Source: an uncultured Alphaproteobacteria bacterium
GTDB lineage: Bacteria > Pseudomonadota > Alphaproteobacteria > UBA8366 > GCA-2717185
Reading direction: 5' to 3'
DNA length: 64,000 nucleotides
Assembly: GCA_943788635.1 (NCBI GenBank)
Contig: CALSRA010000033.1
Location: 1 to 64,000 of the forward strand
In this document: positions 25,616-28,704 of the stretch, piece by piece
How positions within the stretch are numbered: position 1 is the first letter of the stretch
How the letters are laid out: each line of letters opens with the position of its first letter
The notes under the pieces: model-generated
Database searches by the model: none
The model's input: the letters and a program-made list of their open reading frames with translations, nothing else
What the model was told of the DNA's origin: nothing
Made by a program: the position numbers and the translations under genes

Positions 25616-26206
25616 CTAGGTCGTAAAATCGTCCGCCAGGGCAACCCGCATTGCTTCCGGCATTATGGCCATATGGCCATAGGCTTGATGATCGAAACCG
25701 ATCACGATCTCTGTGCCCGGTTGCCGGAATGCGGCAACCTGTTCATCCGTGAAGGGGAAATGCAGAAACTGGACCGATGAAGCCTTGCCGTCCGCAGTGG
25801 TCCGGTCAATATCCTCTTCCGCAACACCCCGAATTTGTGTTCCCGCGACGCGCAAAAATACTTTCTCTTCAATGCCGCCAAGCTTGTTCAGGAAGGTACG
25901 GCGCCGCGCTTCATCGTTGATTTCAAACATGATCGTGCAAACGAGTTCCTTCCCTTTCGGGATCAGCGGGTTATAGGCCGCCAATTCGTCTGCGAGCTGC
26001 TCGTCGCCCCCCTTCTCGATGAAGAGCATTTCCTGAATCTGCCACCACATTGTGTTGTAGGATTCAAAATAACAGGTCGTGACCGGACCGATTTCGATCC
26101 GCCGGTTCCGCTTGTGACCAACAAGTTCCTTGCGCTTGTCGGCCCGGATTTTGGCAAATTCCGGCAGGGAGAGTATATCCGCCGCGGTTATTTCCGTCTT
26201 TTTCAT
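25616..26206 (-). CDS. DUF3501 family protein
   Basis: A 196-residue cytoplasmic protein starting MKKTEITAADILSLPEFAKIRADKRKELVGHKRNRRIEIGP. This N-terminus and the segment YNTMWWQIQEMLFIEKGG match my recollection of the DUF3501 family, whose function is unknown. It has no membrane segment and only two cysteines. It is the last gene of the rubrerythrin / Fe-S protein / DUF3501 unit, 20 bases downstream of the Fe-S protein gene, so it likely works with them. The frame is open further upstream, but that would overlap the preceding gene. Confidence 0.85.
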   Translation of the reverse strand: MKKTEITAADILSLPEFAKIRADKRKELVGHKRNRRIEIGPVTTCYFESYNTMWWQIQEMLFIEKGGDEQLADELAAYNPLIPKGKELVCTIMFEINDEARRRTFLNKLGGIEEKVFLRVAGTQIRGVAEEDIDRTTADGKASSVQFLHFPFTDEQVAAFRQPGTEIVIGFDHQAYGHMAIMPEAMRVALADDFTT

Positions 26207-26226: not shown

Positions 26227-27573
26227 TTAGACGGCGATCCCATAGGCGCGGGCAAACAGAACGACCGGATGCGATGCCGTTTCCGCGGGTGTGTTTTCCG
26301 CGTCGGCAAGCCGTTCCATGCCCTGCGCGAGATGCGCACCGGCCAACGGGCACTCGGATACAACGTGTTTCGTCGCGTTCTTCAATGCCTGCCGTGCGGC
26401 CGGTTTGCCGACTTTCAACGCGATGTCGAAATTATCCTTCATCACCCCCCAGGACCCGCCGTGACCGGAGCACCGTTCGATGACCTGTACCTTGGTATCG
26501 GGAAGCAGACGCAGCATTTCGGCGGCCTTTGCCCCCATATTCTGCGCCCGCGCATGACAGGCAAGATGCACTGTCACGCCACCTTCCAGCGGTGACAACC
26601 CTTCCACAAGTCCGACATCCTTGGCGATTTCGACGACGTATTGCGCGATATCCCGGGTCGCCTTGCTCAACTTCTCAACCGCCGGATCGTCGGGCAGGAT
26701 CAGGGGCCATTCGAATTTCAGCATCAGGGCGCAGGACGGCATCATCGCAATAATGTCGTAGCCCTTGTCGATCCAGGGAACGAGTTCGGCGGCAACCTTT
26801 CGCGCGCTTTCCGCGACGGCAGCGATATCGCCTTGTTCAAGCTGCGGCATGCCGCAGCAAGCCGGGTGGACAACTTCCGTTTCGACCCCGTTTCGCGCCA
26901 GAATCGCACGCGTTGCATGGCCAATTTCGGGATTGTTGTAATTGCCATAGCAGGTCGCATAGAGCACAGCCTTGCGTCCGTGGCCCGGCGCCTGAAGATT
27001 GACCGCCGGCGGGTTGGCGCTCGACGACTTGACGAAGCTTTCGCCGGCAAATTTCGGCAACGCGGCATCGCGGTGAATCCCCGCCACCGATTCCATGACG
27101 GGGCGTGTCAGCGCATTTTTTTCATCGACGGCCCAGTTCACGACCGGTGCGACCATCGCCGCAAGTTTGCCGTTACGGTCGGTTTTGGTCATTTGCTTTT
27201 CGGCAAAGCCGACTTCGCCGTCACGCTGTTCGATGGCGCGATAGCGCAGCATCAAATGCGGAAAATCCAGGTTGAATTCATGCGGCGGCACATAAGGACA
27301 TTTCGTCATGAAGCACATATCGCAAAGCGTGCAGGCATCAACGACCGGCTTGAAATCCTTGGAATCGACTGAATCCAGCTCGCCTGTCTCGGCTTCGTCG
27401 ATCAAATCGAACAGTTGCGGAAAGCTGTCGCACAAATTGAAACATCGCCGGCAGCCATGACAGATATCGAAGACCCGCCGCAATTCGACGTCGAGCTTTT
27501 CCTTGTCATAGAAATCCGGTTCCTGCCACGCGATCGGATGCCGCGTTGGCGCTTCCAGGCTACCCTCGACCAT
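26227..27573 (-). CDS. Two-[4Fe-4S] protein with CCG (heterodisulfide reductase-like) domains
   Basis: A 448-residue protein related to HdrD/GlpC-type Fe-S oxidoreductases. Two ferredoxin-type cluster motifs lie near the N-terminus: C-x2-C-x2-C-x3-C at residues 38-48 and C-x2-C-x2-C-x4-C at 81-92. Two CCG domains follow. The first is complete ([10 protein letters not shown] ... HPACCGMPQ); the second is altered, with LACHARAQN ... [10 protein letters not shown] in place of CCG. No membrane segment is present. It lies between rubrerythrin and DUF3501. An electron-transfer role, possibly to the rubrerythrin diiron site, is inferred from context; the substrate is unknown. Confidence 0.88.
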
Positions 27574-27653: not shown

Positions 27654-28073
27654 TCAGTCGTCGAGCGTGTCCAGCGCCTTCTGGAACCGTCCGGCGTGGC
27701 TCTTTTCAGCCTTCGCCAGGGTTTCAAACCAGTCCGCGATCTCATCGAAGTTTTCTTCACGAGCGGTCCGCGCCATACCCGGATACATGTCGGTGTATTC
27801 ATGGGTTTCACCAGCGACGGCAGCGCCAAGATTGTCAGCCGTGCCACCGATCGGAAGACCCGTTGCCGGATCGCCGGTTTCTTCGAGAAATTCGAGATGA
27901 CCGTGCGCATGGCCGGTTTCGCCTTCGGCCGTTGAACGGAACACCGTTGCGACATCGTTATAACCTTCGACATCAGCTTTCTGCGCGAAATACAGATAGC
28001 GGCGATTGGCCTGGCTTTCACCGGCAAACGCTGCCTTGAGGTTGTCTTCGGTCTTGCTGCCTTTGAGTCCCAT
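27654..28073 (-). CDS. Rubrerythrin without rubredoxin domain
   Basis: A 139-residue ferritin-like diiron protein. Ligand motifs are visible: Glu in [14 protein letters not shown], the E-x2-H pair in [16 protein letters not shown], Glu in [15 protein letters not shown], and E-x2-H in [11 protein letters not shown]. The C-terminal rubredoxin CxxC...CxxC domain of classical rubrerythrins is missing, so electrons must come from another protein. Rubrerythrins reduce hydrogen peroxide. The gene has a GAGGAGG ribosome binding site, its own promoter with Irr/Fur-type elements, and heads the operon with the Fe-S protein and DUF3501. Confidence 0.93.
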
Positions 28074-28112: not shown

Positions 28113-28141
28113 TATATGGCGCAGCATCCAAAAGGAGTCAA
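28113..28141 (-). promoter_or_regulatory. Candidate rubrerythrin promoter
   Basis: On the minus strand TTGACT (28136-28141) and CATATA (28113-28118) are separated by 17 bases, 40 bases upstream of the rubrerythrin ATG at 28073. The GAGGAGG ribosome binding site follows. The Irr-like element lies immediately upstream of the -35. Confidence 0.55.
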
Positions 28142-28145
28142 TAAT

Positions 28146-28162
28146 TCTAGAATGGTTTTAAA
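28146..28162 (-). promoter_or_regulatory. ICE-like element (possible Irr site)
   Basis: On the minus strand TTTAAAA-CCA-TTCTAGA matches 12 of 14 defined positions of the iron control element as I recall it (TTTAGAA-N3-TTCTAAA). A perfect 10-bp palindrome ATTCTAGAAT (28144-28153) overlaps it. The site abuts the -35 of the rubrerythrin promoter and lies just downstream of the irr gene. Confidence 0.5.
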
Positions 28163-28187
28163 GAAAGAAGTATGCGGTTGGGTTAGT

Positions 28188-28202
28188 TGAGAATAATTGT
28201 CA
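28188..28202. promoter_or_regulatory. Fur-type 7-1-7 box upstream of rubrerythrin
   Basis: TGAGAAT-A-ATTGTCA differs from the Fur consensus TGATAAT-N-ATTATCA at one position in each half (12 of 14). It is the core of a longer inverted repeat, TAGTTGA-N9-TCAACTA. It overlaps the irr stop codon and lies about 45 bases upstream of the rubrerythrin -35, a position suited to a Fur-family regulator. Confidence 0.5.
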
Positions 28203-28616
28203 ACTAGCGCGCACTCTGATGATGACGTCAACGCCATCGATGACCGTCCCATCCGGTGCGGACGGCAGATGCGAAACAGCAACCGCATCCCCTGAAATAT
28301 CAATCAGCTGTTCCGTATCCTGATTGAAAAAATGATGATGCAGTTCGGTATTCGAATCGAAATAGGACCGTCGCGAATCCACCGCCACTTCGCGCAGGAG
28401 CCCCGACGCCGTAAACTGGTTCAGCGTATTGTAGACGGTGGCCAGCGAGACTTTTACGCCATTGCCGACAGCCTGCTGATGCAATTGCTCCGCCGTGACG
28501 TGCCGATCCCCGGAATCGAAGAGCAGCCGTGCCAGGGCAAGACGTTGCCGTGTCGGACGCAAACCTGCTGCGGTCAGCCGGTCCAAAACCGGGCGAAATG
28601 GACGGATCATGATCAT
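28200..28616 (-). CDS. irr: Iron response regulator, Fur family (Irr type)
   Basis: A 138-residue Fur-family regulator. The segments LRPTRQRLALARLLFDSGDRHVTAEQLHQQA and KVSLATVYNTLNQFTASGLL form the winged helix. The HHHFFN motif (ELHHHFFNQDTEQ) is characteristic of Irr, which senses heme and controls iron-dependent genes in alphaproteobacteria. The Cys pairs that bind zinc in many Fur proteins are missing, as in Irr. The start may be ATG 28616 or ATG 28610. TTGACA lies upstream at 28699-28704 on the minus strand. The next gene downstream is rubrerythrin, a likely target. Confidence 0.9.
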   Translation of the reverse strand: MIMIRPFRPVLDRLTAAGLRPTRQRLALARLLFDSGDRHVTAEQLHQQAVGNGVKVSLATVYNTLNQFTASGLLREVAVDSRRSYFDSNTELHHHFFNQDTEQLIDISGDAVAVSHLPSAPDGTVIDGVDVIIRVRAS

Positions 28617-28704
28617 AGGCGTTTCATAATACGGCTTGTTTTCGGGTGCAAATGCTTTTTGTAACAGGGTTGTATCTACATTTTTTGAATGTGTCGAATG
28701 TCAA

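Follow-up and report, generated by a model that had tools for sequence, protein, structure and literature searches.

A 17-bp palindrome in the gap between irr and the rubrerythrin gene rbr appears to be an operator for the iron response regulator Irr, which would act beside the -35 element of the rbr promoter and control a peroxide-defence operon of rbr, RFO and DUF3501; we put the probability of this reading at roughly 0.86. The palindrome is conserved in place and in promoter phasing across relatives, and it occurs with Irr. It lies in the window, the whole stretch of DNA that was analysed (64,000 nucleotides), with the following features around it.

28146 to 28162, minus strand: predicted ICE (Irr box) TTTAAAACCATTCTAGA upstream of rbr; the top matrix match in the window
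28136 to 28141, minus strand: TTGACT, the -35 element of rbr, beginning 4 bp after the ICE
28113 to 28118, minus strand: -10 element CATATA, after a 17-bp spacer
28200 to 28616, minus strand: irr, Fur-family iron response regulator, 138 aa
27654 to 28073, minus strand: rbr, aerobic-type rubrerythrin without rubredoxin domain, 139 aa (Pfam Rubrerythrin, 103.3 bits)
26227 to 27573, minus strand: RFO, GlpC-like Fe-S oxidoreductase with CCG domain (Pfam CCG), second gene of the operon
25616 to 26206, minus strand: DUF3501 gene, third gene of the operon (Pfam DUF3501, 197.9 bits)

The site in the irr-rbr gap

The gap is 126 bp long, between the irr stop codon (28200-28202) and the rbr start at 28073, and the ICE lies 37 bp past that stop. 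A sequence-only reading had placed a 17-mer here, directly downstream of irr and abutting the -35 of a plausible rbr promoter, with 12 of 14 positions agreeing with the Irr iron control element; its coordinates and match count were reproduced, and the -35 is reached to within 4 bp (TTGACT, 17 bp, CATATA). The 12 matches of TTTAAAACCATTCTAGA are to the specified positions of TTTAGAA-N3-TTCTAAA, which we take to be the Irr-box consensus. The consensus of 26 distinct sites of relatives, TTTAGAATnATTCTAAA, is in agreement with this form, but the sites were chosen using it. The element adjoins the promoter of a gene related to iron or peroxide, and its interpretation as an Irr box is supported within limits, as a predicted site whose copy in the window is a weakened variant.

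The rbr product contains the rubrerythrin domain without a rubredoxin domain and is encoded beside RFO and DUF3501, as in the aerobic type. Among solved structures, the chains nearest to it are sulerythrin and rubrerythrins of 140-169 aa, and it scores 135.5 with the NCBIfam rubrerythrin model, under the cut-off of 200. In an unbalanced sample of 80 named rbr loci, the top-ranking ones of 586, RFO follows rbr in 78, the remaining two stretches ending within 70 bp of rbr; DUF3501 is found in 71, the other nine stretches stopping before the place where the gene could appear. The predicted Irr target is the known aerobic-type rbr-RFO-DUF3501 operon and not mbfA.

Across the genomes compared, rbr is present in 45 of 59, that of the window included. 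There are 47 irr loci; three with irr and no rbr (L158, L159 and L162) were left out, which leaves 43 besides that of the window. Whether relatives with this gene order share the site had been named earlier as a check, and they largely do: it matches at 11/14 or better in 41 of the 43 other irr-rbr gaps (12/14 or better in 37) against 0.87 expected, and TTGA stands 0-5 bp from it in all 41. The two exceptions are L019, at 10/14 with a palindrome beside TTGAC, and L160, at 8/14. In a profile of 32 loci anchored on the box and TTGA, part of the -10 element stands out, being moderately conserved, and most of the remaining gap carries little information. Loci with no TTGA at 0-3 bp from their best site, among them the window and its two siblings, were omitted from the profile, followed by two near-identical segments, so that the conservation of box and TTGA in it is partly due to how the loci were selected. 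Compared with a sibling of the same genus (L004), the window is identical at 13/14 ICE positions, 6/6 positions of the -35 and 73/97 of the remaining ones, with CATATA in both.

In locus L031 (genome G058), irr and rbr are separated by a peroxiredoxin gene and other sequence; an ICE-TTGAC module follows irr, 352 bp before the peroxiredoxin start, and another is found 97 bp before rbr. Therefore, a module stays with rbr. The sequence-only reading had taken the adjacency of the site to its likely regulator as evidence stronger than that of either by itself. The adjacency itself stands, but its weight is less than claimed, given the modules of L031 despite intervening genes and the boxes found where an Irr or Irr-like gene is encoded elsewhere.

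Direction of control

Apo-Irr binds ICE boxes, haem lifts it from them, and the position of the box sets repression or activation (PMC7762939). By this mechanism, haem-free Irr dimers would bind the ICE next to the -35 element of rbr, and haem, in iron-replete cells, or peroxide would remove Irr from the DNA, whereupon expression of the rbr operon would change. Since an Irr dimer bound there would be expected to extend as far as the -35 element, repression lifted by haem or peroxide is favoured, at about 70:30, over activation from just upstream of the -35. Repression also has its precedents: bfr and blr7895 of Bradyrhizobium are repressed by Irr (PMC3413700) and induced in iron-replete media (PMC6515984). 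A role in oxidative stress defence is stated in PMC3413700 in the passage concerning sphaeroides.

Activation of rbr by Irr at this site, with rbr raised in iron-poor cells, is rather unlikely but has several points in its favour. The ICE lies at about -56 to -40 from the inferred transcription start, a place compatible with an activator, and direct activation is commoner for Irr than for Fur (PMC7762939). The rbr of Pelagibacter rises 1.57-fold under iron limitation, a better fit to activation, in a paper whose excerpts are silent on an ICE at that gene (PMC2864753), and in L101, a locus of Pelagibacteraceae, rbr adjoins a homologue of irr (41% identity) and there is a 13/14 site. However, the Pelagibacter change is small, the site of L101 is only 22 bp from the start codon, and the box of many gammaproteobacterial loci stands in a repressing position, at 25-73 bp from the start codon. 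The repressed Bradyrhizobium genes point the same way.

Irr and other Fur-family proteins

The regulator gene encodes an Irr by the curated models (NCBIfam IrrA NF045678, 200.1 with a cut-off of 150; Irr NF045677, 183.3 with a cut-off of 170), and reaches at most 67 bits with PerR models whose cut-offs are at least 180. The HXH motif is present as HHH at residues 93-95. The protein has no cysteine, and the N-terminal Cys-Pro motif, which is the second haem site in Bradyrhizobium Irr and is not universal, is absent from it. The HXH motif for haem and DNA is conserved in Irr and the second haem site is diverse (PMC7762939); therefore, the Cys-Pro motif is not family-defining.

The relation between box and regulator was followed in the 80 named rbr loci, a box being a match of at least 11/14 within 300 bp upstream. 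Where irr is adjacent, 29 of 37 loci have a box; where an Irr homologue is encoded elsewhere in the genome, 10 of 14 do; and where no Irr was detected, 7 of 29 do. By chance, 0.95, 0.39 and 0.65 would be expected, respectively. An Irr elsewhere was defined by an IrrA score above 90 bits, a cut picked post hoc where the scores drop from 96.4, the lowest kept, to 69.5, and 5 of the 14 genomes are over the curated cut-off and 9 below it. With phylogeny ignored, Fisher's test gives p = 6.6e-6 for Irr against none and 0.0065 for Irr elsewhere against none. None of nine rbr loci of Irr-less Caulobacterales and Sphingomonadales, so assigned by record title, has a box, and two further relatives without Irr (G044 and G048) have rbr but no box (9/14 each). 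Overall, the box occurs with Irr and is absent without it as an association with exceptions: 8 of the 37 irr-adjacent loci fall below 11/14, three of them from Magnetovibrio (L033, L035 and L038), and the box is missing in 4 of the 14 genomes with Irr elsewhere.

All seven boxes for which no Irr was detected are gammaproteobacterial, judging by record title or family; their assemblies may lack the gene, or the box may serve a different regulator. In eight proteins of non-alphaproteobacterial genomes IrrA is the best model, yet they score 97 to 139 with a cut-off of 150, and are therefore termed Irr-like. ICE-like boxes, including the form TTTAGACTnnGTCTAAA, stand upstream of gammaproteobacterial rbr (L036, L040, L055, L108, L110 and others), with Irr-like Fur-family proteins elsewhere in the genome.

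Binding of the palindrome by Fur or some other Fur-family member in place of Irr is improbable, although the core GAATnATTC is common to ICE and Fur-type boxes. The genome has two further Fur-family genes, one on C48 that looks Zur-like by eye and one on C20 whose best model is Fur (99.7, below its cut-off of 146); a Fur-like 7-1-7 palindrome is present 41 bp from the ICE; and the seven gammaproteobacterial genomes with a box and no detected Irr would fit such a protein. So would the TTGCGAATTATTCGCAA-type palindrome found upstream of rbr in Irr-less Novosphingobium (L047 and L052). But the box tracks Irr and not Fur, as eight of the nine Irr-less Caulobacterales and Sphingomonadales have another Fur-family match and none of the nine has an ICE, and the outer TTT/AAA letters are conserved in the sites of relatives, unlike in the Fur-like box.

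Among the Irr-less loci, a palindrome like TTGCGAATnATTCGCAA, which we take to be a Fur box, is seen upstream of rbr in L047 and L052 and less well in L064 and L112; similar Fur-like sequences at 12-13/16 also occur in some irr-adjacent loci (L073, L079 and L101). A rewiring of rbr to Fur is possible in L047 and L052.

The Fur-like palindrome of the window itself is as follows.

28187 to 28203, minus strand: second palindrome TTGACAATTATTCTCAA, of the 7-1-7 Fur-family type, spanning the irr stop codon; its start lies 41 bp upstream of that of the ICE

Within the family, genera g1 and g3 have this second palindrome in 7/7 loci, at 13-15/16 to TTGAGAATNATTCTCAA and 40-41 bp from the ICE, a distance of about four helical turns; it was not seen in the 3/3 loci of genus g2. 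The strict 7-1-7 form TGANAATNATTNTCA, presumably a Fur-box form, is matched at 28188-28202. It occurs at 11 places in 10 genomes of the family and at none in a reversed control; five of these are the palindrome across the irr stop, and two further ones (G000 C28 and G009) are inside open reading frames. In G004 (L222), a 7-1-7 box, TGAGAATGATTGTCA, lies 183 bp before a gene of the ferritin family and has a bfd-like open reading frame on its other side; the likeness to bfd, and that of the ferritin-family gene to bacterioferritin, were judged by eye. The core AGAATnATTCT of the second palindrome's relatives is common to the ICE. Either protein, Fur or Irr, could bind the second palindrome, which may accordingly be a box for Fur or a further one for Irr. 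A terminator was also considered for it and rejected, as no T-run follows the palindrome.

Chance level, breadth of the circuit and related systems

A matrix was trained on 27 loci outside the window's genus, from the relatives' own irr-rbr gaps (the training site of L019 being the other of two tied candidates), and it measures conservation and not proven Irr binding. With it, the ICE scores 21.5 and 22.3 on its two strands, of a maximum of 31.6, which is the highest place in the 64 kb; the runner-up is the second palindrome at 28187, with 15.6. A matrix score at background level had been named as evidence against the site, and the ICE instead tops the window, in a test that is one of conservation. 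The window copy, which departs from the consensus at two positions, is a weaker match than those of its two genus siblings (21.5 and 28.6, respectively). In 5000 simulations from a Markov model of the same gap, the matrix score was attained in 0.12% and a 12/14 match in 0.18%.

A 17-position model was also built from the 26 distinct sites of relatives, in an alignment (A1) that omits L019, L147, L160, the window's genus and duplicate sites. At E<=10, this model finds the ICE and nothing else in the window (E 0.18, 10 bits). In the own genome (G000), there was no match at E<=10 among 150 of 477 candidates scored, and in G020 none among 150 of 325. Consensus sites with up to three mismatches are not enriched in the own genome, at 45 compared with 67 in a reversed control. 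The ICE is one of three places there with two mismatches, and the other two are inside open reading frames by a crude longest-ORF call. Among the neighbours of 13 ICE-type and 19 7-1-7-type places, most of which are inside open reading frames, crude ORF calls gave no convincing second target. By consensus matching alone, the site does not stand out genome-wide, and it is the comparison with relatives that carries the case. That an AT-rich intergenic stretch should resemble the box by chance, with which this lack of enrichment over controls would agree, is nevertheless extremely improbable against the 41 of 43 gaps with fixed TTGA phasing (0.87 expected) and the 0.12-0.18% of the Markov control.

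In 11 relatives, nine places have at most one mismatch and six of them are the irr-rbr gap, with 11 places in the reversed control; five of the 11 are without any such place. With the 17-position model and 150 first-look candidates scored per genome, the irr-rbr site is the only match at E<=10 in G001, G002, G007 and G009, and one extra match is found besides it in G005 and one in G017. The model was trained on sites that included those of G005, G007, G009, G017 and G020 and not those of G000-G002, G001 and G002 being of the window's genus. Boxes at other peroxide genes are seen in G017, where an ICE-like site (L260:1501-1556; 11/14, E 2.9) precedes a catalase gene by about 40 bp, and in the L031 locus with its peroxiredoxin. 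No mbfA was found over the cut-off in 30 genomes searched, with one sub-threshold match in G043. Provisionally, it appears that these genomes have few other strong boxes and that the circuit is narrow, by searches that are blind to weak boxes.

Control by Irr through ICEs includes bfr and blr7895 in Bradyrhizobium japonicum and mbfA and ccpA in Rhodobacter sphaeroides (PMC3413700). The system described here is similar in that its Irr belongs to the same curated family, the ICE lies near a promoter and the targets handle iron or peroxide. It differs in that the rubrerythrin-like target of those bacteria (blr7895, the mbfA homologue) is MbfA, according to NCBIfam an iron exporter with 318 positions, whereas here it is a 139-aa rubrerythrin in a three-gene operon beside irr. 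The aerobic-type cluster RBR-RFO-DUF3501 is described in PMC5114695 and shares with the operon the three genes together and a rubrerythrin without the rubredoxin domain. In its main text, the words Irr, PerR, regulator and promoter do not occur; an operator and a regulator are proposed here, unlike in that description.

In anaerobes, PerR controls rubrerythrin, so a Fur-family protein in charge of a rubrerythrin is common to both; in contrast, the present protein is far under the PerR cut-offs and the box is of the ICE type. An ICE at an aerobic-type rbr operon was not found in the excerpts of PMC10374146, PMC9549626, PMC2864753, PMC7762939, PMC5114695, PMC4902296, PMC6515984, PMC6532209 and PMC3413700, nor elsewhere in the literature searched, which did not cover Rodionov 2006, the likeliest place. 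Thus, the regulator and the type of site are already known, and their steady pairing with the rbr operon is not described in the literature searched. What is added is a specific conserved operator and a regulator, both proposed, for a widespread operon.

One possible scheme, which we hold to be somewhat less likely than not, can be described as follows. In this order, Irr would serve not as a global iron regulator but almost exclusively as a peroxide and haem switch for the rubrerythrin operon of the aerobic type, with catalase or peroxiredoxin added in some relatives. The link between Irr and rbr would predate iron control in rhizobia, with rbr-linked ICE boxes and Irr-like Fur proteins paired in gammaproteobacteria too, and lineages that lost Irr would have moved rbr to the control of a Fur-type box. 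The second box, 40-41 bp upstream in the window's family, would add joint control by Fur or a second Irr dimer. The findings suggest that a narrow circuit, in which Irr is devoted to peroxide defence, may predate the large Irr regulons of rhizobia.

A further sequence of the ICE type lies on the other side of irr.

28683 to 28699, minus strand: weak ICE-like sequence ATTCGACACATTCAAAA, 66 bp upstream of irr, score 6.6

Partly similar ICE-like sequences, weak and variable, are found 59-66 bp upstream of irr in several relatives, and ATTCGACACATTCAAAA is tentatively a possible autoregulatory site of irr.
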